Assembly (NCBI GenBank): GCA_024401915.1
Contig: JAKSKA010000031.1
Span: 1-10,851, forward strand
DNA: 10,851 bases
Reading direction: 5' to 3'
Origin: Bacteroidales bacterium
GTDB lineage: Bacteria > Bacteroidota > Bacteroidia > Bacteroidales > UBA932
A model generated the notes under the pieces. The model was not told the origin of the DNA and searched no databases. It was given only the letters and a program-made list of their open reading frames with translations. Position 1 is the stretch's first letter. Every line of letters starts with the position of its first letter. Position numbers and translations under genes: made by a program. Positions 1-10,723 of this stretch are shown here, piece by piece.

Positions 1-1129
1 CGCTTTCCGCAAAGGTGTCAAGGCTGTCACGCATAAAGAATACAGCCCTCTGGGTTGCCGAAAGCTTGTTCCAGTCGGGGAAAATCTGCGTCCACTTGAA
101 CTTGGTTCCATCCTTCCATTCGAAGTCATCCACAAACTCGGCCGCAGGCACAAGGCGCGTCCAGCTGTTGAGGTTGGTCCTGGAGCCGATGACCCACTGC
201 CAGCAGGAAGAGAATCCGTCGGTCCCGGAATGTTCCAGAGGGAATATCATCTCGCAGTTGTGCTCGTTCTCCGGCTGGAAGAGGGACTCCCAGCTGTGGG
301 TGGCATCGACCTGCCAGAGACCGAAGCCGCACTGCTTTACCTTATCGAAATCCTCAGCTGCCAGTTTGTAGTACTCCTCTATCTTTGCACTGCCTATGCT
401 TGCGCCGTCATCATAGATCTCAGGGTTCTTGTCGGCAGCAAGCCACATATACGCATTTCCGCGAAGAGCATAGGCCATACCCTTGGAAGGCTTGCAGGGC
501 CTGATTCCGGTAATGTTGTTCGTCTGGAACCAGGGGTCCTCTATACACTTCGTACACTCGTCGATGATCATCGCCCACACTTCGTCCCAGGTATTCTGGG
601 CCTTGGTGCACTGGCTGTTATCCGTCTCGTCGAGGTAGATCGGGACCTCACCGAAATACATATTCAAACGCGTGTAGCAATATGCCCTTATCATCCTGGC
701 TTCGCCAATATACTGGCCGTACAGCTCTTCGCCCACGACGTCCTTGTTCAGGTGGGCGATAGCCTTGTTGCACGCCATAATGGCCGTATAGTTGCTCTTC
801 CATTCCGCGGCGTTCTCAGAGCCTGATGCAATCTTCGTGGCCTGGCGCAGGAAACTGGTCTGGGAGCCGCCGTCGATGAGGCTGGTATAGCCGAGACCTT
901 CGGTGCCGATACGGTTTATTCCGCCCTTTCCATTGGTGCAGACCAGGTCGTTGAGCCCGTCGACGTGCCTGGTAAGGGGATACATAAGCCCGTCGATGCC
1001 GGCCGTGGACATTGACTTGCTGGTCCACATATTGCCGTCGGAAATCTGGTTTCTCGGGAAGGTGTCAAGCAGTCCGCTGCAGGAACAGATGGACAGGACA
1101 GCCGCTAATATGGTAATTGTTCTTTTCAT
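1..1129 (-). CDS. SusD/RagB-family outer-membrane glycan-binding lipoprotein (3' part outside window)
   Basis: This gene encodes a surface lipoprotein expected to cap the adjacent SusC transporter and bind the glycan substrate. I translated the minus strand from the ATG at 1129 and found an open frame of 376 codons with no stop before the window edge. SusD proteins are usually about 500-650 residues, so the C-terminal portion is missing. The start MKRTITILAAVLSIC is a short lipoprotein signal, with the probable lipidated cysteine at residue 17. It is followed by SGLLDTFPRNQIS, the typical SusD opening (CS..LDT.P). Further family-like segments are the helical stretch around GEARMIRAYCYTRLNMYFG with VPIY just after it (TPR-like core) and GMAYALRGNAYMWLA. 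The gene lies 12 bp after the SusC stop and is surely cotranscribed with it. The visible part has 12 cysteines, which is many for this family. The substrate cannot be told from the sequence. Confidence 0.95.
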   Translation of the reverse strand, partial: MKRTITILAAVLSICSCSGLLDTFPRNQISDGNMWTSKSMSTAGIDGLMYPLTRHVDGLNDLVCTNGKGGINRIGTEGLGYTSLIDGGSQTSFLRQATKIASGSENAAEWKSNYTAIMACNKAIAHLNKDVVGEELYGQYIGEARMIRAYCYTRLNMYFGEVPIYLDETDNSQCTKAQNTWDEVWAMIIDECTKCIEDPWFQTNNITGIRPCKPSKGMAYALRGNAYMWLAADKNPEIYDDGASIGSAKIEEYYKLAAEDFDKVKQCGFGLWQVDATHSWESLFQPENEHNCEMIFPLEHSGTDGFSSCWQWVIGSRTNLNSWTRLVPAAEFVDDFEWKDGTKFKWTQIFPDWNKLSATQRAVFFMRDSLDTFAES

Positions 1130-1141
1130 AATCGGTCCATT

Positions 1142-4100
1142 TTAGAAAGTTAACTGCAAACCGCCGCAAAAACTCCTGATAAGGGGGTATCCGACACCGG
1201 CACCTATCTCCGGGTCAAGTCCGGGGAATTTCGTGAATGTCAGGAGGTTTTCTCCGGCGACGAACACGCGGAGGCTGCTGATCGAAGCCGGCTCCATCCA
1301 TTTCTTGGGGAAGGTGTAGCCGAGCTGGATGCTCTTGAGCTTCACGTAATCGCCCTTGTAGTGGTAGAAGTCGCAGAGGCTGTCATTCATTGTCTTGTTA
1401 TACAGCAGACGCGGATATGTAGCGTTTATGTTGTTCAGCGAAGGGTCTCCCTCCGGATTGTAGTAATAGTGGTCGGAGGCTATCTTCCTGGAGATGGCCT
1501 GGCCCCTGTTGACTATAGTGGTATTGTAAACGCTTGTGTTCCAGTCGAGATAGAATCCGAAAGCACCCGTAAACAACGCATAGAAATCTATACCCTTCCA
1601 CGACATACTGATATTGAGGCCGGCCGTCACCCTCGGCGTGTTCGAATGGCCGGTAAAGGCCTTGTCGTTATTGTCGCCGTAGTTGCCGTCTCCGTTCGTG
1701 TCCGCATAGATGAAATCACCGTAGTAGAGGATATCCTTGCCGGTTGTTTTCCCGCCCTGGAACTTGTAGCCGGCTGCCATCATAGCCTGGACCCAGGCCA
1801 TATCGCTTTCCGTCCTGATCATTCCGTCCACAGGGCCTGCATTCACGTCCACGTCCCCACTGCCGGAATAGCCCTTGCCGCTACCATTGTAGAGATGGAG
1901 CATATACTGGTCTCCCAGCAGGTGGCCCTCGACTATATATCCGCCGAAGCCGCTCTGACCCACATCACCGATATTGTTGATGTAAACGTTTTCTCCGGTA
2001 ACGGGATCCGTGGACCATTCCTGGATGAGTTTTCCTTTATATTTGGTAACGGTCGTGCGGTTGTAGGCAAGATTGAGCCCTACGGAATAGCTGAAGTCAC
2101 GGCCTATGCCGTCCCTCCATTTTAGAGCCAGTTCCAGACCCCTGTTCCTCACGCCCGCGAGGTTCTCGTACGGAGCGGTGACGGCCCCCATAGTCATATA
2201 GATGGACGGACGGAAAAGGATACCGGTAGTGTTCTTGATGTATGCGTCGACCTCTCCGGTCAGCTTGTTGTCAAGGAACCCGAAGTCGATGCCGACATCA
2301 CTGGTCTTCGTGGTCTCCCACTGGAGGCTGTTGTTGCCGAGTTCGGTGACGAGCAGGCCTTTCGCGTCCACGCCCATAGATACAACGTTGACGGAGGTGA
2401 AGTTGCTCTGCCAGGCGTAATTGCCCGAGTTGTTGTTACCCGTGACGCCCCAGGATGCGCGCAGCTTGAGGTTGCTCAGCCAGGACGATGCGCCCTGCAT
2501 CCACTTTTCCTGGCTTATGCGCCAGCCGGCCGAGAAGGAGGGGAAGAAGCCCCAGCGTGACTGGGGAGCGAAGCGCGACGAACCGTCCGCCCTGAAATTC
2601 GCCTCCAGCATATATTTTCCGTCATAGACGTAGTTCAGACGGCCGAAACCTGACATCAGGCCCCAGTCCGAAGTACCGCTGTCGGATGCGTCGTATTCAG
2701 CGTATGCGGACATCTCGGTAATCACCCAGTCAGTCTTCGTCTTCTTCGAGACGGAGCTGTAGGGAGAGATATAGTGATTGACGGAGAAGCCGCCGATTGC
2801 TCCGATTTCGTGCTTGCCGAAAGTGCCGTTATATCTCAGGATCGCCTCGCCGTTGGTCCTGTAGCTGGCCGTGTGGGCCACCTCGTTCCAGGCGTTGCGC
2901 AGCGACGATTCCGACTGGATCGTATCGGAGACATAGTTCCAAATATCGGTCTGGGTTGAATACGAATGGGTGTAGCCGATGTTGAAGTTGTGGTTGCCGG
3001 TGAATTCGAGGGAGAGTCCCTTGTAAAGTTTCGCCTTCAGGTATGCAGTACCGGAGCCCCTGTAATAGTATTTTTCTCCGTCACGCTGCGCCAGGTTCTT
3101 GAAGATGTTGTTGGCATTGGCGCTTTCCTCGTCCGTCGCGATATACCCCCATTTGTTGGTGGAACCGGGATACATACCGGGAACGGCCATCTTCAGGTAG
3201 CCGAAGGCCGTACCGACATCCGCCAGACCGTAATCCTGGCGCTCGCCGAAGACCTTGACGCCCGCGCTGAGCCACTTCGTGACGTTCACGTCCACGTTGG
3301 CGCGGATATCGAACTTCTTCGTGCCGCTGTCCACCCCGTGATGGCTCATAACACCGGTATTGTCCATAAATCCGATGGAAATATAGCTCTTCACCGTCTC
3401 GTTGCCGGAAGAGACGGACAGATTGTGCTTCTGGAGGAGCCCGTGCTGGAAGGCCTCCTTGAACCAGTCGGTATTGGGGTATGCGATGCTGTTCTTGACG
3501 CCGTATGCGTTCAGCGCGTCGGGATTCCGCTTCGCGTTCTCCCACAGGTTGATGGTCTGGTCCGAGAAGACGTGGGTCACACCAAGATTGTCCGCGCCCT
3601 CATTGATCAGCCTCATCTGCTCGGCGTAATCGGTCACATAACCGAGATTGCCGAGATAGGGCGTCTGCATATCCATATTCATCGTATATGTGACGTGCGT
3701 CTTGCCGGCAGAGCCGCCCTTGGTCGTCACGAGGATGACGCCGTTGGCCGCGCGGCTGCCGTAGATGGCCGTCGAGGATGCGTCCTTGAGGACGGTGATG
3801 GATTCGATATCCTGGGGGTTGATTTCGTCCATAGAGTACTCGATGCCGTCGACGAGCACGAGAGGACCGTTGGAGTTCAGGGTGGTGTTGCCGCGGACGC
3901 GCAGAGTCGCACTGTCGCTGCCCGGCTGGCCGGAAGTCTGCATCACGGCAAGGCCCGGAGCGAGACCGCCGAGGGCGCTCGACACCGTCGTGATAGGCCT
4001 GGACTCCATTCCTTCGCTGAAATTGACCGTAGAGACGGCACCGGTGAGATTGGCCCTCTTCTGCACGCCGTAACCAACCACGACGACCTCGTCGAGATAG

Positions 4101-4648
4101 TTGGTGTCGGGCTTCATCTGGAGGTCAAGCTTTCCGCCTGCGGGAGGGAGCAGCGACTCCGCCTTCATTCCGAGACAGGTGAACTCCATTTCGGAAGTCG
4201 GGGCCACAGTCATCGAATACCTGCCGTCGATATCGGTTATGGTCGCATTCTTCGTGCCTTTTTCCGAAACGAACACTCCGGGAAGCGGAAGTCCCTGATC
4301 GTCAACGACAACGCCGGACACTTCAATGGACTTGCTCTTCTTCGGCTGCGGAGATGCGGGACTCAGGATAATCTGCCTGTCACTGATCTCGTACCTGACT
4401 GGAAGTCCGCCGAGCACCGCGCCCAGCACCTTGGTCAGGGAGCCTTCGACAGAGGCGGAAACCGGCGCATCCACGTCGATAAGGGAATTGTTGTAGATGA
4501 AATGGAAGCCCGTCTTGTTCTGGATATCCACAAGTACCGTGCTGAGTTTCACATCCTTGTAATCTACCGACAGCTCCTGTGCGAGAGCGTTCGACGACGC
4601 CATCACAACGGCTGCCAGGAATACGATTATTCTTTTTAACGATATCAT
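1142..4648 (-). CDS. SusC/RagA-family TonB-dependent transporter with N-terminal STN signalling domain
   Basis: This is the outer-membrane beta-barrel that imports oligosaccharides using TonB energy, with the SusD protein as its lid. The product is 1168 residues and appears complete. The signal peptide is residues 1-23, with cleavage likely at ALA|QE. Residues about 26-96 form an STN domain (from LSVDYKDVKLSTVLVDIQ to YEISDRQIIL). Residues about 109-178 form the carboxypeptidase-regulatory-like domain (SGVVVDDQGLPLPGVFV, then TDIDGRYSM). The plug follows from about 186, with DEVVVVGYG, LRVRGNTTLN, GPLVLVDGIE and AIYGSRAANGVILVTTKGG. The rest is barrel, ending in an aromatic-terminated strand (GGLQLTF). 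Known biology: the STN domain is present only in the subset of SusC proteins that signal to a FecR-type anti-sigma factor, and one is encoded at 7515-8492. The ATG at 4648 is chosen because it directly begins the signal peptide. The start lies 24 nt after a conserved motif in the divergent promoter region. Confidence 0.97.
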   Translation of the reverse strand: MISLKRIIVFLAAVVMASSNALAQELSVDYKDVKLSTVLVDIQNKTGFHFIYNNSLIDVDAPVSASVEGSLTKVLGAVLGGLPVRYEISDRQIILSPASPQPKKSKSIEVSGVVVDDQGLPLPGVFVSEKGTKNATITDIDGRYSMTVAPTSEMEFTCLGMKAESLLPPAGGKLDLQMKPDTNYLDEVVVVGYGVQKRANLTGAVSTVNFSEGMESRPITTVSSALGGLAPGLAVMQTSGQPGSDSATLRVRGNTTLNSNGPLVLVDGIEYSMDEINPQDIESITVLKDASSTAIYGSRAANGVILVTTKGGSAGKTHVTYTMNMDMQTPYLGNLGYVTDYAEQMRLINEGADNLGVTHVFSDQTINLWENAKRNPDALNAYGVKNSIAYPNTDWFKEAFQHGLLQKHNLSVSSGNETVKSYISIGFMDNTGVMSHHGVDSGTKKFDIRANVDVNVTKWLSAGVKVFGERQDYGLADVGTAFGYLKMAVPGMYPGSTNKWGYIATDEESANANNIFKNLAQRDGEKYYYRGSGTAYLKAKLYKGLSLEFTGNHNFNIGYTHSYSTQTDIWNYVSDTIQSESSLRNAWNEVAHTASYRTNGEAILRYNGTFGKHEIGAIGGFSVNHYISPYSSVSKKTKTDWVITEMSAYAEYDASDSGTSDWGLMSGFGRLNYVYDGKYMLEANFRADGSSRFAPQSRWGFFPSFSAGWRISQEKWMQGASSWLSNLKLRASWGVTGNNNSGNYAWQSNFTSVNVVSMGVDAKGLLVTELGNNSLQWETTKTSDVGIDFGFLDNKLTGEVDAYIKNTTGILFRPSIYMTMGAVTAPYENLAGVRNRGLELALKWRDGIGRDFSYSVGLNLAYNRTTVTKYKGKLIQEWSTDPVTGENVYINNIGDVGQSGFGGYIVEGHLLGDQYMLHLYNGSGKGYSGSGDVDVNAGPVDGMIRTESDMAWVQAMMAAGYKFQGGKTTGKDILYYGDFIYADTNGDGNYGDNNDKAFTGHSNTPRVTAGLNISMSWKGIDFYALFTGAFGFYLDWNTSVYNTTIVNRGQAISRKIASDHYYYNPEGDPSLNNINATYPRLLYNKTMNDSLCDFYHYKGDYVKLKSIQLGYTFPKKWMEPASISSLRVFVAGENLLTFTKFPGLDPEIGAGVGYPLIRSFCGGLQLTF

Positions 4649-4668: not shown

Positions 4669-4699
4669 CTATTACACTTATCTCTATAATATCCCCGAA
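4669..4699 (-). promoter_or_regulatory. Candidate promoter/operator for susCD, minus-strand copy of a symmetric pair
   Basis: Read on the minus strand, this stretch contains TTCGGGGATA (4699 down to 4690), a 10-nt spacer, then AAGTGTA (4679 down to 4673) and ATAG. It matches the plus-strand element at 4713-4743 at 19 of 31 positions. The matches are concentrated in the two blocks, and the spacing is identical. The susC ATG follows AAGTGTA after 24 nt. No TAnnTTTG-type housekeeping -7 motif was found on this strand in the gap, which fits control by an alternative sigma factor. Whether the blocks are -35/-10 elements of the ECF sigma encoded at 6931-7503 or a regulator's binding site is inference. 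Confidence 0.55.
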
Positions 4700-4707
4700 T
4701 AGATTTG
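4700..4707 (+). promoter_or_regulatory. Possible housekeeping -7 element (TAGATTTG) for the GH3-sigma-FecR operon
   Basis: TAGATTTG matches the Bacteroidota primary-sigma -7 consensus TAnnTTTG exactly. It lies 48 nt before the GH3 ATG at 4756. No convincing TTTG-type -33 element is present about 20 nt upstream, so the match may be chance. If real, it would give basal expression of the sigma and anti-sigma genes. It sits at the centre of symmetry of the two outward-facing motifs. Confidence 0.3.
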
Positions 4708-4712
4708 CGTTT

Positions 4713-4743
4713 TTCAGGGATAAACCTTCGTCAAGTGTATTTG
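4713..4743 (+). promoter_or_regulatory. Candidate promoter/operator for the GH3-sigma-FecR operon, plus-strand copy of a symmetric pair
   Basis: The plus strand reads TTCAGGGATA (4713-4722), a 10-nt spacer, AAGTGTA (4733-4739), then TTTG. The same blocks with the same spacing occur on the other strand at 4699-4669, facing susC. The GH3 ATG at 4756 follows AAGTGTA after 16 nt. If TTC[A/G]GGG is taken as a -35 and GTGTA as a -10 core, the gap is 15 nt, a plausible ECF promoter spacing. That reading is inference. The end of the element (TGTATTTG) also resembles, with one mismatch, the TAnnTTTG -7 motif. Confidence 0.55.
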
Positions 4744-4755
4744 TTATGTAGTATT

Positions 4756-6918
4756 ATGCGCAAATTACACTATCTCTTACTTCTACTTCCCTGCATCTGT
4801 TTCGGACAGACGCGGAAACCGGGCCCGGCGGAGACGCTTGCAGGTATGACCCTGCAGGAGAAGGCCTCCTGCGTGGTAGGCCTCAAAAGGGATCTGTTCC
4901 CGCCGACGAACAATGGATTCGCCGGCCGGACGACACCCTTCCCCGGATACGGTATCCCCACGCTCACGCTCGCTGACGGCACGGCCGGGCTGAGGCTCAG
5001 CCGCCGCGGCAAGGAAAGGGCCACCGCGTTCCCGGACAATATGGCTCTCGCATCGTCCTGGAACGAGGCGCTCGTCAGGGAGGTGGGCGCAGCCGCGGGC
5101 TTCGAAGCGAGGAAATACAATGCGAACGTCCTCCTCGCCCCCGGAATGAACATCATCAGGAACCCGCTGTGCGGAAGGGATTTCGAATATTTCTCCGAAG
5201 ACCCTTATGTCACCGGAAAGATGGGCGCGGCATACGTCGTCGGCATCCAGAGCAACGGAGTGGCCGCTTCCGCCAAGCATTTCGCCTGCAACAACCAGGA
5301 GACAAACAGGACCCATAACGACGTGAGGGTAAGCGAAAGGGCTCTGCGTGAGATTTACCTCAAAGGATTCGAGATATGCGTGAAGGAGGCCGATCCCTGG
5401 ACGATAATGTCCTCCTACAACAGCCTCAACGGCACTCCGGTCCAGGAGTCGCCCCGGCTCCTCACCGACATCCTGAGGAAGGAATGGGGCTACAAGGGCC
5501 TCGTGATGACGGACTGGTCCATCTCGAAGCACAACACCGCAGCCCAGCTCCACGCCGGCAACGACCTGTATATGCCGGGAAAGGAGCAGCAGGTCGAAGA
5601 TATCATAAACGGCATAAACGACGGGTCGATCCGTATGGAAGACCTCGACAGGGCCTGCCTCGACATACTGGAACTCGGCCGCAGATGCGGTTTCGAGCAG
5701 AGCACTGAAAACCCTGACCTGAAGGCCGGGGAGGCCGTATCGCTGAAAGCGGCCTGCGAGAGCGCCGTGCTGCTCGAGAACAACGGGATGCTGCCGCTCG
5801 CCGGAAAAGGCGGGAAGGTGGCGCTGTTCGGTGTGCGCTCCTACGACCTCATATCGACGGGAGGCGGCTCCGGCTTCGTCGTCAGCCCGCACATCGTCCA
5901 GATCAGCGAAGCGTTCAGGGCCGGCGGCGTGGAACCGGACGCGAAGCTCGAGGACCTGTACACCAAATTCGCGGCTTTCGCGGCCGCGGACATCAAGTAC
6001 AACGAAAAGATCAAGATAGACATAGGCATCCCCCCGCTCCCGGAGCTCGAGATATCGGAAACGCTCATCAAGGCGGCGGCCGAGGCCGACGACTACGCAA
6101 TCATCACGATAGGACGCTCGGCCGAGGAGGGAAAGGACCGCAATCTGGAAAATGATTACTACCTTTCGGACACCGAAAAGAAGCTGATCACAGGGGTCTG
6201 CAACGAGTTTCACAAAAAAGGCAAAAAGGTGGCCGTAATCCTGAACATAGCAGGAATCATCGAAACCGAATCCTGGAAAAGACTGCCTGATGCCATACTC
6301 GACATCTGGCTTCCGGGACAGGAAGGCGGTAACGCCGTCTTCGACCTCCTCAACGGCAGGGCCAACCCTTCCGGCCGTCTGGCGCTCACCTTCCCGAAAG
6401 ACTATTTCGACCTGCCTACGGCGCGGAACTTCCCTTACGACAAACCGGCCGAGGGACAGAAGAATTTCGATTACACCTCATACGAAGAGGGGATCTACGT
6501 CGGATACAGGCATTTCTGCACCCGGAACATACCGGTATCCTATCCTTTCGGATACGGCCTGAGCTACACCTCATTCGATTATCCGGATATGAAGGTGACC
6601 CGCAGGAAAGACAAGGTCAGAGTATCCTTCACCGTCAAAAACACCGGGAGTCTTGAGGGGAAGGAAGCCGTGGGCGTGTATATATGCGCACCGGGAAAGA
6701 CTATGGACAAGCCGGCGAAGGAGCTGAAGGGCTTCGCGAAGACAGGACTGCTCGCTCCCGGCGAGGCCCAGACGATGGAAATCGAAATAGCGGTCAGCGA
6801 CCTGGCCTCCTACAACGAAAAGAGCGGAAAGTGGGAAATGGAGAAAGGGCGTTACACGGTTGTACTGGGAGCTGACTGCAGCGACCAGAAAGCAACAAGG
6901 ACAATCAACATTCCCTAA
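4756..6918 (+). CDS. Secreted glycoside hydrolase family 3 beta-glycosidase (beta-glucosidase-like)
   Basis: This enzyme is expected to release terminal beta-linked sugars from oligosaccharides, probably in the periplasm. The product is 720 residues. The ATG at 4756 is chosen over an in-frame upstream TTG because it begins a signal peptide (MRKLHYLLLLLPCICFG, cleavage likely before QTRK). No good lipobox is seen. The GH3 TIM-barrel domain carries GRDFEYFSEDPYVTGKMG, KHFACNNQETNR and the nucleophile motif VMTDWS, with nucleophile D253. The alpha/beta sandwich follows. Its segment GRSAEEGKDR holds the likely acid/base E458, by analogy with the GEGYDR segment of Thermotoga Bgl3B. A C-terminal fibronectin-III-like domain covers roughly residues 625-715. 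Length and domain order match Bgl3B-type enzymes. GH3 members act on glucosides, xylosides or other sugars, and the exact specificity cannot be read here. The gene heads an operon with the sigma and anti-sigma genes and is divergent from susCD. Confidence 0.95.
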   Translation: MRKLHYLLLLLPCICFGQTRKPGPAETLAGMTLQEKASCVVGLKRDLFPPTNNGFAGRTTPFPGYGIPTLTLADGTAGLRLSRRGKERATAFPDNMALASSWNEALVREVGAAAGFEARKYNANVLLAPGMNIIRNPLCGRDFEYFSEDPYVTGKMGAAYVVGIQSNGVAASAKHFACNNQETNRTHNDVRVSERALREIYLKGFEICVKEADPWTIMSSYNSLNGTPVQESPRLLTDILRKEWGYKGLVMTDWSISKHNTAAQLHAGNDLYMPGKEQQVEDIINGINDGSIRMEDLDRACLDILELGRRCGFEQSTENPDLKAGEAVSLKAACESAVLLENNGMLPLAGKGGKVALFGVRSYDLISTGGGSGFVVSPHIVQISEAFRAGGVEPDAKLEDLYTKFAAFAAADIKYNEKIKIDIGIPPLPELEISETLIKAAAEADDYAIITIGRSAEEGKDRNLENDYYLSDTEKKLITGVCNEFHKKGKKVAVILNIAGIIETESWKRLPDAILDIWLPGQEGGNAVFDLLNGRANPSGRLALTFPKDYFDLPTARNFPYDKPAEGQKNFDYTSYEEGIYVGYRHFCTRNIPVSYPFGYGLSYTSFDYPDMKVTRRKDKVRVSFTVKNTGSLEGKEAVGVYICAPGKTMDKPAKELKGFAKTGLLAPGEAQTMEIEIAVSDLASYNEKSGKWEMEKGRYTVVLGADCSDQKATRTINIP

Positions 6919-6930
6919 TTGCAGGATAGA

Positions 6931-7503
6931 ATGGAAACAGAAGACAATAATCTGGAACGTCTCAAAGAGATTGCGCTTGCGATAAAGGCAGGCAGCAAGG
7001 ACGTGTTCCGCTCCGTTTACAGGGCGGAATACTCCAATCTGCTGCACTTCGTCAATGCCTACGTGAGGAACAGGCAGGACTCCGAAGACCTCGTTCAGGA
7101 AACGATGCTGGCACTTTGGGAGAACAGGGATAGCATAAACCCGGAGCGCAATTTCCGCTCCTACATCTATACGATTGCGAGGAACAAGTCCCTCAACTAC
7201 CTGAGAGACAACTCGAAATGGATGAAGGATATGCCGCTGGCGGACGTCGAGAACATGATCAACTCGCTTGCACTGAGCTCCCAGTCGGTGGATGACGAGA
7301 TCAACGTGATGGAACTTCGCGGCTTCATCGACAGAGTCTATCTGTCCCTGCCGGAAAAAGTCGTCAACACCTTCAAGCTCAGCCGCCAGGACGGGCTTAC
7401 ATATAATGAGATAGCCGACAAGCTGGGCATCACCCCCAAGGTTGTCGAATATCATATAGGCATAACGCTCAAAGCATTGCGACGCAAACTCGAGTTAAGT
7501 TAA
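6931..7503 (+). CDS. ECF-type RNA polymerase sigma factor of the SusC/FecR signalling class
   Basis: This protein directs RNA polymerase to specific promoters, here presumably those of the surrounding glycan locus. It has 190 residues, the usual ECF length. The ATG at 6931 (METEDNN) is preferred to the in-frame TTG at 6919 that directly abuts the GH3 stop. An AGGATAGA stretch just before it may serve as a weak ribosome-binding site. Sigma region 2 covers about residues 20-90 (QDSEDLVQETMLALWENRD, then FRSYIYTIARNKSLNYLRDN). Region 4 covers about residues 130-185, with a helix-turn-helix (LTYNEIADKLGITPKVVEYHI, then LKALRRKL). The gene lies 12 bp after the GH3 gene and 11 bp before the anti-sigma gene, so the three form one operon. 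The target promoters are not known. The symmetric motifs at 4669-4743 are candidates. Confidence 0.96.
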   Translation: METEDNNLERLKEIALAIKAGSKDVFRSVYRAEYSNLLHFVNAYVRNRQDSEDLVQETMLALWENRDSINPERNFRSYIYTIARNKSLNYLRDNSKWMKDMPLADVENMINSLALSSQSVDDEINVMELRGFIDRVYLSLPEKVVNTFKLSRQDGLTYNEIADKLGITPKVVEYHIGITLKALRRKLELS

Positions 7504-7514
7504 AATCAAAGACT

Positions 7515-8492
7515 ATGGAAGAGAAAATCATATTGAGGTATATACTTGGAACCGCAGACAAGAATGAACGCAGGCAGGTCGCTTCCTGGATTCAGGAATC
7601 GCCGGAGAACGTCAACACCTTCGCCAGGATCAAGGCGCAGTATGTGTTCTCAGGTATGCCGAACAGCATAATCCCCGAAAAGAAGAGGATACTGCCGGTA
7701 TTGACCTATGTGGCGGCAGCGCTTTCCATTCCCCTTCTCGTACTTGGCATCTGCCTTTACTGCGGGATGAGGAAGGCGAACGACAGCTGCGCGTCCGCGA
7801 ACAGGCAGGTGGAGATACTGACCAGTCAGAATCCCGGCAGCGTGACCTATGTCGCGAATCCCGGAGTAAAAAGCACGATAGTGCTGCCTGACAGCTCCAT
7901 CGTGAAGCTTAACGGAGACTCGAAGCTCATCGCTCCGAATATGTTCGCAGCCGACAGCAGGAGGCTCTTCCTGTCCGGAGAAGGTTATTTCGAGGTCAAG
8001 CACCACGAAGACTGGCCTATGCTCATACAGACTGCCAAGGACGTGAGCATCAAGGTCCTTGGAACGACATTCGACCTCAAGGCCTACGAAAACGAGCCTA
8101 TGGTCAAGCTCACCCTGATAGAGGGCAAGGTGCTGGTCCGCGACAACAAGACCAACTGCGAGCACGAGGTGATGCCCCATCAGGAATTCAAGATCCAGGA
8201 TTCGCAGGATACGGGCTATCCCGAGATCAGGGATGCGGACATCCAGAAAAACACCAGCTGGACCAAGGGCGAACTCGTTTTCGACAACACTCCTATGACC
8301 GAGATAGCCAAGCAGCTTGAAAGATGGTACGGAGTGAAGGTCCACATTGCCGACAACAAGATTCTGAACTACCGTCTCACGGCAAGGTTCACCAACGAAT
8401 CCATCGTCCGTGTCCTCGACCTGATCCATTTCTCCTCGATGGTGAATTACGAGATCAGGGGTAACGACGTCTATATCAGCAATACCAGATAA
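7515..8492 (+). CDS. FecR-family anti-sigma factor, inner-membrane
   Basis: This single-pass inner-membrane protein is expected to hold the neighbouring sigma factor and release it when the STN domain of the SusC transporter signals. The product is 325 residues. Residues 1-50 are a cytoplasmic anti-sigma segment (LRYILGTADKNERRQVASWI). One transmembrane helix spans about 60-82 (LPVLTYVAAALSIPLLVLGIC). The periplasmic FecR domain covers about 110-210, with VLPDSSIVKLNGDSKL, RLFLSGEGYFEV and KVLGTTFDLKAY. A C-terminal DUF4974-type domain covers about 253-325, with FDNTPMTEIAKQLERWYGV and FSSMVNYEIRGNDVYIS. This domain resembles the STN fold and is a plausible contact for the transporter. The gene is separated from the sigma gene by 11 bp. 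No terminator hairpin was seen after its stop. Confidence 0.96.
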   Translation: MEEKIILRYILGTADKNERRQVASWIQESPENVNTFARIKAQYVFSGMPNSIIPEKKRILPVLTYVAAALSIPLLVLGICLYCGMRKANDSCASANRQVEILTSQNPGSVTYVANPGVKSTIVLPDSSIVKLNGDSKLIAPNMFAADSRRLFLSGEGYFEVKHHEDWPMLIQTAKDVSIKVLGTTFDLKAYENEPMVKLTLIEGKVLVRDNKTNCEHEVMPHQEFKIQDSQDTGYPEIRDADIQKNTSWTKGELVFDNTPMTEIAKQLERWYGVKVHIADNKILNYRLTARFTNESIVRVLDLIHFSSMVNYEIRGNDVYISNTR

Positions 8493-8534: not shown

Positions 8535-9383
8535 ATGAAAAAGATATTTGCTCTCATCGCGGCAGCGGCAGTTCTTGCCACGGCCTGCACCAAACAGAAT
8601 GCTGCCGAAAAGCAGCTGACGAAGGTCACTGTCAGCACCTGCGAACTGACGAAAACGTCTATGGGCGGTAACGAGGAAGGGACGCGCAGCGTTTTCTGGA
8701 GCGTCGGCGACGCAATCTGCATCAACGGCGTGCCCTCCCAGAATCTGACATCGGAAGACATCAACGCCGCGGGCACCACCGCCACCTTCAAGTTCGAAGG
8801 CCTGATCGACAAGCCCTACAACGTATACTATCCCGCATCCGGCTACAAGGACGCGTCCACGATCACGCTCCCCTCGGTCCAGGGCGACGCGAACGGGGAC
8901 AACTTCGCTAACGGGGCCGTTCCCCTCTACGGCTACCTCGAAGGTGAAGGCGGCTTCAAGATGCACCAGCTCTGCGCCATCCTGAAGATACAGCTCAAGA
9001 AGAAGACCCACGCCCACGACATCAAGTATGTCGAATTCAGCGGCAACGGCGGTGAGCAGGTATGCGGCAGCTTCACCCTCGACTACCAGACAGGTGCGCT
9101 CACGCCCACATCCACCGCATCCGCAGACCGCGCCGTGAAGGTCGCAGCATCGCGCACCCTCTCCACCGAAGAGGTGTCCGTGGTCAACATCTGCATTCCC
9201 GCAGGCACCTATACGGACGGCTTCAAGGTCCGCGTGGTCGACGTGAGCGGCCACTATATGGACAAGGCAAAGGCGAGCGAGTCAACTATCGAAAGAGGTA
9301 ACATCTACGTGATGTCGCCGTTCGAATTCGAGCCCACCGGGACAATAATGGATATCGAGATCGATACCGGCGGAACGAAATGA
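8535..9383 (+). CDS. Fimbrillin-like lipoprotein of unknown role
   Basis: The product is a 282-residue predicted lipoprotein. The ATG at 8535 is chosen over an upstream TTG at 8499 because it starts a clean signal (MKKIFALIAAAAVLATAC, lipidated cysteine at residue 18) and lies just after a strong promoter. The mature N-terminus contains LTKTSMGGN, then SVFWSVGDAICINGV. This KTS...W..GD.I pattern recurs in fimbrillin (FimA/Mfa-like) family proteins and related Bacteroidales surface lipoproteins. The middle (LYGYLEGEGGFKMHQLCAIL) resembles the strand that follows in those proteins. The rest is predicted to be beta-rich, with no enzymatic motif. The family assignment rests on pattern recall and is moderate. 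A structural or adhesive role at the cell surface is inference. The stop overlaps the next gene's start by 4 bp (ATGA), indicating translational coupling with the dehydrogenase gene. Confidence 0.85.
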   Translation: MKKIFALIAAAAVLATACTKQNAAEKQLTKVTVSTCELTKTSMGGNEEGTRSVFWSVGDAICINGVPSQNLTSEDINAAGTTATFKFEGLIDKPYNVYYPASGYKDASTITLPSVQGDANGDNFANGAVPLYGYLEGEGGFKMHQLCAILKIQLKKKTHAHDIKYVEFSGNGGEQVCGSFTLDYQTGALTPTSTASADRAVKVAASRTLSTEEVSVVNICIPAGTYTDGFKVRVVDVSGHYMDKAKASESTIERGNIYVMSPFEFEPTGTIMDIEIDTGGTK

Positions 9384-10723
9384 CCTATTCCCTCGCAGTA
9401 ATCGGAGGCGGCCCCGGAGGCTATACAGCCGCGGAGAAAGCGGCAGCAGCCGGAATGGACGTCATCCTTTTCGAGAAAAACGAGCCTGGTGGAGTATGTC
9501 TCCACGAAGGCTGCATCCCCACCAAAGCGCTTCTCCACTGCGCAAAGACCTATGACCACGCTCGCCACGGCGCTGCGTTCGGGCTCGTGTGTCCGGAACC
9601 GCAGTTCGACTTCGCGAAGATGATGGAGCGCAAGAAGCGGGTCGTCAGAAGACTCGCAGGCGGCGTGAAGGCCGGGCTCAGGGAGGCCGGGGTCACCTGC
9701 ATCAAGGAATGCGCCGTCATCGTGGGCAGGAACGCCGGCGGGCTCTTCACGGTCAGGGCCGGAGAAGAATGCTACGAAGCCGAAAGGCTGCTCATAGCCA
9801 CCGGTTCCTCGGCCATCGTGCCGCCGATACCGGGAATCACGGAATCAGACGCCGTGGTCACGAGCATCGGGCTGCTTTCGCTCACTGAAGTGCCGCAGAG
9901 CCTTTCCGTCATCGGCGGAGGCGTGATCGGGATGGAATTCGCCGCCCTGATGAGCACCCTCGGTGCAAAGGTCAGCGTAATCGAGATGCTGCCCGAAATA
10001 CTGGCCGGCTTCGACACGGAAACGGCAGCGGCACTGAGAGCGTGCTATGCTTCCAGAGGCGTGGAATTCCACCTTTCCTGCCGCGTCAGCGCCATAGACG
10101 GGAACACTATAGTCTTCACGGACAGCGAAGGCACGGAGAACCGCATCTGCGCCGAAAAGATACTCGTGAGCACGGGACGCCGCCCCAACACGGAAGGGCT
10201 CGGGCTCGAAAAGCTTGGCGTCGAAACAGGACGCGGAATAGTCACGGACGGCAGAATGCGCACTTCCGTCCCGGGAATATGGGCGGTCGGCGACGTCAAC
10301 GGACGCTCGATGCTCGCCCACACCGCAATACGCGAAGCCGGCGTGGCCGTCAGCGATATGCTCGGGAAAGAGGACACGATGGAATACGGCGCGATACCCG
10401 GAGTAGTCTATACCTGCCCTGAAGTGGCCGGGATCGGACTCACGGAAGAAAACGCGCCCGCGGACGCAGTGATAAAGAAGCTCCCCATCGCATTTTCCGG
10501 ACGCTATGTCGCGGAAAACGAAGACATCAGCGGTTTCTGCAAACTGATCTGCGACGGGAAGTCGGAAAAGATCCTCGGGGCCTGGATAGTCGGCAACTCC
10601 GCCGGCGAGATTATCCACAGTATCGCGCTCGCAATGGCGTCATCGCTTTCAGCTTCCGACCTGCGACGCACGGTATTCCCCCACCCCACCGTCTCCGAAA
10701 TCCTCCGGGAGACGATAGCATAA
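9380..10723 (+). CDS. lpdA: Dihydrolipoyl dehydrogenase (E3, FAD-dependent)
   Basis: This cytoplasmic flavoenzyme reoxidises dihydrolipoyl groups with NAD+ in 2-oxoacid dehydrogenase complexes or the glycine cleavage system. The product is 447 residues, slightly shorter than the usual 460-475, but complete by motif. The N-terminal FAD motif is VIGGGPGGYTAAEKA. The redox-active disulfide is C40/C45 in GGVCLHEGCIPTKALL. The NAD-binding motif is VIGGGVIGMEFAALMSTLGA. The second FAD motif is IWAVGDVNGRSMLAHTA. The C-terminal catalytic dyad is H435 and E440 in HPTVSE. The HPT..E ending and lack of a C-terminal Cys-Cys argue against mercuric reductase, and glutathione reductase is less likely. No E1, E2 or lipoyl-protein gene is in the window, so its partner complex is unknown. 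The start codon lies within the stop of the upstream lipoprotein gene (ATGA). Confidence 0.93.
   Translation: MTYSLAVIGGGPGGYTAAEKAAAAGMDVILFEKNEPGGVCLHEGCIPTKALLHCAKTYDHARHGAAFGLVCPEPQFDFAKMMERKKRVVRRLAGGVKAGLREAGVTCIKECAVIVGRNAGGLFTVRAGEECYEAERLLIATGSSAIVPPIPGITESDAVVTSIGLLSLTEVPQSLSVIGGGVIGMEFAALMSTLGAKVSVIEMLPEILAGFDTETAAALRACYASRGVEFHLSCRVSAIDGNTIVFTDSEGTENRICAEKILVSTGRRPNTEGLGLEKLGVETGRGIVTDGRMRTSVPGIWAVGDVNGRSMLAHTAIREAGVAVSDMLGKEDTMEYGAIPGVVYTCPEVAGIGLTEENAPADAVIKKLPIAFSGRYVAENEDISGFCKLICDGKSEKILGAWIVGNSAGEIIHSIALAMASSLSASDLRRTVFPHPTVSEILRETIA

Follow-up and report, generated by a model that had tools for sequence, protein, structure and literature searches.

Divergent promoter-like sites conserved between the two operons of a Bacteroidales glycan cluster, probably read by the cluster's own ECF sigma factor

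How are two operons controlled when they diverge from a shared gap and one of them carries a sigma factor? In the window, i.e. the whole stretch of 10,851 nucleotides of Bacteroidales DNA analysed here, susCD runs leftward and GH3-sigma-FecR runs rightward, with a 107-bp gap between them, see Table 1. An earlier note on this DNA had found the pattern TTC[A/G]GGGATA-N10-AAGTGTA once on each strand of the gap, and had taken both copies for promoters recognised by the ECF sigma factor whose gene lies at 6931-7503. Comparative genomics supports this reading, short of proof. We consider it likely that the two motifs are divergent promoters of this sigma factor, which would give co-induction of the two operons and positive autoregulation. 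The case rests on sequence, namely on the motif, its conservation, its fixed spacing, its place just before gene starts and its clustering at the sigma locus.

Table 1. Genes and candidate promoter sites in the window.
Feature	Position	Strand	Details
susD-like lipoprotein	2..1129	-	cut by the window end
SusC/RagA-type TonB-dependent transporter	1142..4648	-	ATG at 4648; N-terminal STN-like stretch below the Pfam cut-off
Promoter-like site towards susCD	4673..4699	-	TTCGGGGATATTATAGAGATAAGTGTA; -35-like TTCGGGG 4693-4699, 15-nt spacer, -10-like GTGTA 4673-4677
Promoter-like site towards GH3-sigma-FecR	4713..4739	+	TTCAGGGATAAACCTTCGTCAAGTGTA; -35-like TTCAGGG 4713-4719, 15-nt spacer, -10-like GTGTA 4735-4739
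GH3 glycoside hydrolase	4756..6918	+	ATG at 4756; gene 1 of the rightward operon
ECF sigma factor	6931..7503	+	TIGR02985, 139.7 bits (cut-off 126.4); putative reader of the two sites
FecR-like anti-sigma	7515..8492	+	FecR and FecR_C domains

The sigma factor matches Sigma70_r2 and Sigma70_r4_2 as well as TIGR02985 over its cut-off, i.e., it has regions 2 and 4 only. The anti-sigma gene adjoins it, with FecR and FecR_C both over their cut-offs, and the STN match of SusC covers residues 48-98 with 25.1 bits against a cut-off of 28.4. Of the seven proteins annotated in the window, only the sigma factor was recognised as DNA-binding. After FecR, the same strand encodes a lipoprotein-like protein and then a dihydrolipoyl-dehydrogenase-like enzyme (8535-10723, +). 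Neither has a match in the ten orthologous loci described below (L001-L010), and the protein at 8535-9383 (translated from 8532) is without a Pfam match; tblastn against L001-L010 and L081-L091 gave no relative of it either.

Both copies of the pattern are exact, with their midpoint at 4706. Even when up to three mismatches are allowed they are the only two matches in 10,851 bp, compared with a mean of 0.04 in 200 shuffles, none of which held two; this figure is too flattering because the pattern was drawn from the sequence itself. The 31-nt copies agree at 19 positions, as had been claimed, and among inverted 31-mers of the gap that do not overlap, none match better. A match of 19/31 is also reached by 4/200 dinucleotide shuffles and is by itself only mildly unusual. 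The two-block form (at least 9/10 and 7/7 matches at equal spacing) was reached by 0/100 shuffles. For the pair as candidate sites, the decisive support is conservation in orthologues and not these window statistics.

Of 80 loci retained from a search with the sigma protein, ten have 67-76% identity and the next best has 28%. According to their titles, these ten come from ruminant-derived genomes (water buffalo, goat, sheep, and RUG, which we take to mean rumen uncultured genome). SusD-SusC diverges from GH3-sigma-FecR in five loci (L001, L003, L008, L009 and L010), and L002 has the same layout as far as the contig end, inside susC. GH3-sigma-FecR is present in L004 and L005, with no susCD within 5.8 kb upstream, and the sequences of L006 and L007 begin just before GH3 and inside GH3, respectively. 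The earlier note had staked its reading on conservation of the blocks in orthologous intergenic regions, and they are kept there. Using a relaxed pattern, a TTCRGGG-N15/16-GTGTA-like site is found upstream of GH3 in 9/9 loci and upstream of susC in 6/6 loci that cover the respective DNA, and a scan of the window and the ten loci with this pattern has matches in this gap only. The SusC-side sites are looser and weaker, including ATCAGGG-N16, ATTCGGG, ATTAGGG and ATAAGGA.

Seven of the ten GH3-side sites were compared pairwise, omitting L002 and L005 as near-duplicates and L010 for its 16-nt spacer. Identity is 96% and 100% in the two blocks, 35% in the spacer (27% expected) and 30% in the 20 nt upstream, which argues for selected sites rather than a duplication, as the earlier note had proposed. 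As identity is confined to these blocks, the conserved unit is TTCRGGG-N15-GTGTA, with TTAAGGG in two loci and N16 in a few as variants. Thus the pair first described is present, while its conserved core is narrower than the longer blocks then proposed. In the same way, the exact symmetry about 4706 is true in the window and is absent as a conserved feature in the orthologues; we regard it as incidental. What is found is an oriented two-block motif at a fixed spacing, directly upstream of genes and conserved above its spacer, the form expected of an ECF promoter.

The motif also recurs at other genes. In seven sigma-bearing genomes TTCAGGG-N15-GTGTA has 11 matches, nine before genes and two inside ORFs (in G002 and G007), and the reversed pattern has none. 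When spacers of 5-25 nt were scanned in ten genomes, N15 accounted for 16/57 counted rows and the next best spacing for 5; one of the 58 rows was omitted, as it shares its start base with another. The additional sites belong to this gene cluster as well and are found upstream of a GH78 alpha-L-rhamnosidase, of a GH2-like protein followed by a GH92, and of lipoproteins with or without calcineurin-like phosphoesterase domains. They often form divergent pairs again, close or overlapping. The wider search proposed in the earlier note did yield further sites when run on relatives, chiefly upstream of other cluster genes. In 40 kb from two stretches beyond the cluster there was no intergenic site and one low-scoring match inside an ORF; the cluster stretches, too, have low-scoring matches in ORFs.

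Among 200 genomes of the genus, the sigma factor is present in five, one of which (G201) has a match with stops in frame and zero exact pattern matches. The five contain 9 exact matches (8 before genes, 1 in an ORF) and the other 195 contain 44, with 19 matches of the reversed pattern over all 200. The match rates differ at a Poisson P of about 3e-6 if kinship between genomes is ignored, and at least one match is found in 4/5 genomes with the sigma and in 37/195 without it (Fisher P 0.007, the relatives not being independent). Several genomes are near-duplicates, so the site counts are not independent either. In contig 202 of G201 (L131), the sigma match is 64% identical with two in-frame stops and is accompanied by pieces of FecR; this system seems to be decaying or misassembled.

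Part of the forward-pattern excess does not come from this sigma, as the genomes that lack it have 44 forward matches, against 19 reversed matches in all 200. These matches would fit a reading in which the two sites are promoters but serve a different sigma factor, or are shared within an ECF group, instead of serving sigma 6931-7503 alone; so would the related grammar, described below, before susC genes that adjoin other FecI-like sigmas. We find this unlikely, as the sites cluster round this sigma locus, and of eight of the 44 matches that were picked by eye and inspected, seven are in ORFs, one is outside called ORFs and none stands before a gene start.

The distance from the end of GTGTA to the ATG was taken for 38 sites, i.e., 44 rows minus six second-register duplicates, with a gene start required within 65 nt; this limit leaves out sites with longer leaders such as L130 14379, L103 4532 and L132 2668. 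It is 8-11 nt at 20 sites and 16 nt at one (the GH3 side of the window); 15 sites have 23-46 nt, two have 1-2 nt, and one of the 38, L103 1109, has a second in-frame ATG downstream. On the SusC side of the window it is 24 nt. As these distances fit a core-promoter position, the site is taken as a putative core promoter. Transcription from ECF promoters starts some 6-9 nt after the -10 block, and a GTGTA 8-11 nt before the ATG therefore predicts leaderless or near-leaderless mRNAs. With such a start, the GH3-sigma-FecR mRNA of the relatives is predicted to be leaderless or nearly so, and a leader of roughly 7-10 nt is predicted for the GH3 operon in the window. Among the 5' UTRs of B. thetaiotaomicron, those below 10 nt make up only about 3.7%, according to the available part of PMC7366714.

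The paired sites also shift relative to each other. Measured in 15 pairs, the offset from one GGG core to the other ranges from -8 (overlapping, in three loci) to +26. This is a poor fit to the alternative given in the earlier note, in which both blocks are half-sites of a single symmetric operator, where a dimeric regulator controls both operons. The exact mirror symmetry in the window and a LacI-like gene that adjoins the operon in one relative (L099) would suit such an operator; it is nonetheless quite improbable, as the half-site distance is not fixed, oriented single sites stand upstream of other genes, the site occupies the core-promoter position at 8-11 nt before many ATGs, and the sigma factor is the sole recognised DNA-binding protein among those annotated in the window. 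A chance likeness or an old functionless inverted duplication, for which the shuffles that reach 19/31 could speak, has next to no probability given the recurrence of the site at other genes and orthologue blocks that are so much better kept than their spacer.

A fixed helical phase between paired sites was considered and set aside: R was 0.85 with 11 pairs and, with four pairs more, P was about 0.04 (unique offsets), which is a weak lead. Second divergent pairs are seen at L092 19658/19661, L132 2668/2670, L103 4532/4544, L130 7530/7543, L133 9921/9934, L093 7701/7714 and L095 10413/10427, often with a gap of about 8-11 nt for one gene and a longer one for its partner.

We suggest that the two sites are core promoters in which the -35-like TTCRGGG and the -10-like GTGTA, 15 nt apart, would be read by RNA polymerase with the ECF sigma factor 6931-7503. 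By analogy with the family, a glycan engaged by the SusC-like transporter would make the FecR-like anti-sigma free the sigma, and the holoenzyme would then initiate at both operons, susCD to the left and GH3-sigma-FecR to the right. The transporter, the enzyme, the sigma and its anti-sigma would rise together, and the sigma, by raising its own level, would form a positive loop. As the sites abut or overlap, competition between two polymerases is possible. In this scheme we infer the identity of the sigma factor, the start points, the induction and the autoregulation. In the relatives, the same sigma probably drives more promoters of the cluster (those of GH78, of the GH2-like protein then GH92, and of the phosphoesterase lipoproteins), about half of them leaderless or nearly so. 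The cluster in G001 (L093) has several surface lipoproteins with calcineurin-like phosphoesterase domains beside GH78, GH92, GH2 and GH3, and one guess is that its substrate is a phosphorylated glycan.

The locus resembles FecI/FecR/FecA cell-surface signalling and its Bacteroides glycan version in having a TIGR02985 ECF sigma, FecR and FecR_C domains and a SusC-type transporter. In PULs with sigma/anti-sigma pairs, transport through SusC changes the anti-sigma and the sigma is released (available part of PMC11501099). The locus differs from the FecI/FecR/SusC systems in the placement of its sigma and anti-sigma genes, which belong to a GH3 operon that diverges from susCD and have a candidate promoter of their own upstream. 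Classical ECF promoters have a GGAAC-type -35 and a CGTC-type -10. The sites share with them two short blocks at a fixed spacing near the gene start and differ in a -35-like TTCRGGG without AAC and a -10-like GTGTA; because the -35 lacks GGAAC/AAC, we class them only as a variant of an ECF promoter.

Other promoters of the phylum can be compared as far as they are described in the parts of the papers available to us. The housekeeping promoter of Bacteroidota has TTTG at -33 and TAnnTTTG at -7 (PMC7366714); it likewise consists of short blocks just upstream of genes, and the conserved blocks here do not match TAnnTTTG. A perfect TAnnTTTG box of this type, TAGATTTG, is located between the two sites at 4700-4707 (+), pointing at GH3, and could be a source of basal expression for the sigma operon; it is present in 3/8 orthologous gaps only, where it lies outside the conserved blocks. 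SM6 of Flavobacterium psychrophilum, an ECF-type motif and also a candidate alternative-sigma promoter, differs by a CGT box at -10 and goes with type IX secretion genes (PMC9723704). Candidate alternative-sigma promoters are also described for B. thetaiotaomicron: PM2 is a near-palindrome with a link to oxidative stress (PMC12596196, PMC7366714), the 2025 motif for SigW-1 is reported as non-significant (PMC12596196), and the likeness to our sites lies in a TGTT box mentioned near -10 in two SigW-1 promoters (PMC12596196, PMC7366714). For EcfO of B. fragilis an ECF-type motif is in print, as cited in PMC7366714. A 2013 comparative study called the prediction of Bacteroidota ECF promoters challenging and in need of start-site data (PMC3878776), and according to a 2020 study, B. 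thetaiotaomicron then had no known ECF motif (PMC7366714). Our literature search, including the available parts of PMC9249621, PMC10766802 and PMC12632263, identified no report of the present consensus. The motif is likely, not certainly, novel, because the ECF reclassification may list predicted motifs per group and the EcfO motif is known by citation only.

A related site accompanies more distant sigma factors. Among 149 genomes of the family, six further genomes contain seven sigma genes at 43-46% identity, in the order sigma-FecR-SusC. Their FecR-SusC gap holds TAGGG or GAGGG-N15/16-GTGTA in 6/7 cases (4 distinct sequences), the seventh being without a gap. Unlike in the window, the site of these relatives stands before susC, and the 300 nt ahead of the sigma, whose start is approximate in 3 of 7, gave none.

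For a wider view, FecR_C matches were collected from 35 of 59 family genomes and 33 of 61 phylum genomes and the downstream gaps taken, where the next gene need not be SusC. The family set has 70 stretches, many of its gaps coming from G039 and G040; 57 were used, as 11 lack a callable next gene and L147 (neighbour of a known relative) and L148 (the orthologue itself) were dropped. The phylum set has 49, of which 43 were used. Every combination of 4-mer, spacer and 3-mer was counted, without presetting the motif. The top-ranked dyad in the 57 family gaps is AGGG-N16-TGT, with 9 observed against 0.17 expected and at most 1 in 100 shuffles (direct test). The same count in the 43 phylum-level gaps gave no enrichment of it, and a phylum-wide motif was rejected.

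A two-block mixture model, seeded with the hypothesised motif, gave TTTAGGG-N15-TTGTA for the family gaps, with 20/53 assigned and a log-likelihood of 88.0, where 20 shuffles reached 40.5 at most; at least two of these 20 sites look false (the one in L220 sits within a hairpin, and the one in L206 is 163 nt away from the start). On the phylum gaps the model drifted to a different pattern. The -35-like block is nearly constant in the family sites and the -10-like block is variable. Over the 200 genus genomes TTTAGGG-N15-TTGTA has 25 matches against 40 reversed, i.e., no genome-wide enrichment, so the grammar is bound to FecR-downstream gaps and not common elsewhere.

We lean slightly towards AGGG-N15-NTGTA being a general promoter grammar of FecR-linked ECF sigmas in the glycan clusters of one Bacteroidales family. 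AGGG would be shared, and the -10-like block (GTGTA, TTGTA, ATGTA, TTGTT or GGATA) could separate parallel systems; the clade of the window would have a self-amplifying, cluster-wide regulon with a leaderless or near-leaderless sigma operon mRNA. Gut and rumen Bacteroidota can have dozens of ECF sigmas. With a spaced consensus of two blocks that is linked to one sigma and has a counterpart across the family, the regulon can be put to a direct test, and so can a possible sigma/promoter code. The consensus offers a concrete sequence for a poorly defined promoter type, the Bacteroidota ECF promoter, and could be a source of inducible expression parts for Bacteroidota hosts.

At the phylum level (L201-L260 and L172-L200), what lies between FecR and SusC is in many cases, as judged by eye, a sequence resembling a hairpin and then an A/T-rich run, in place of the AGGG motif. 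A different mode of control is possible at these gaps.
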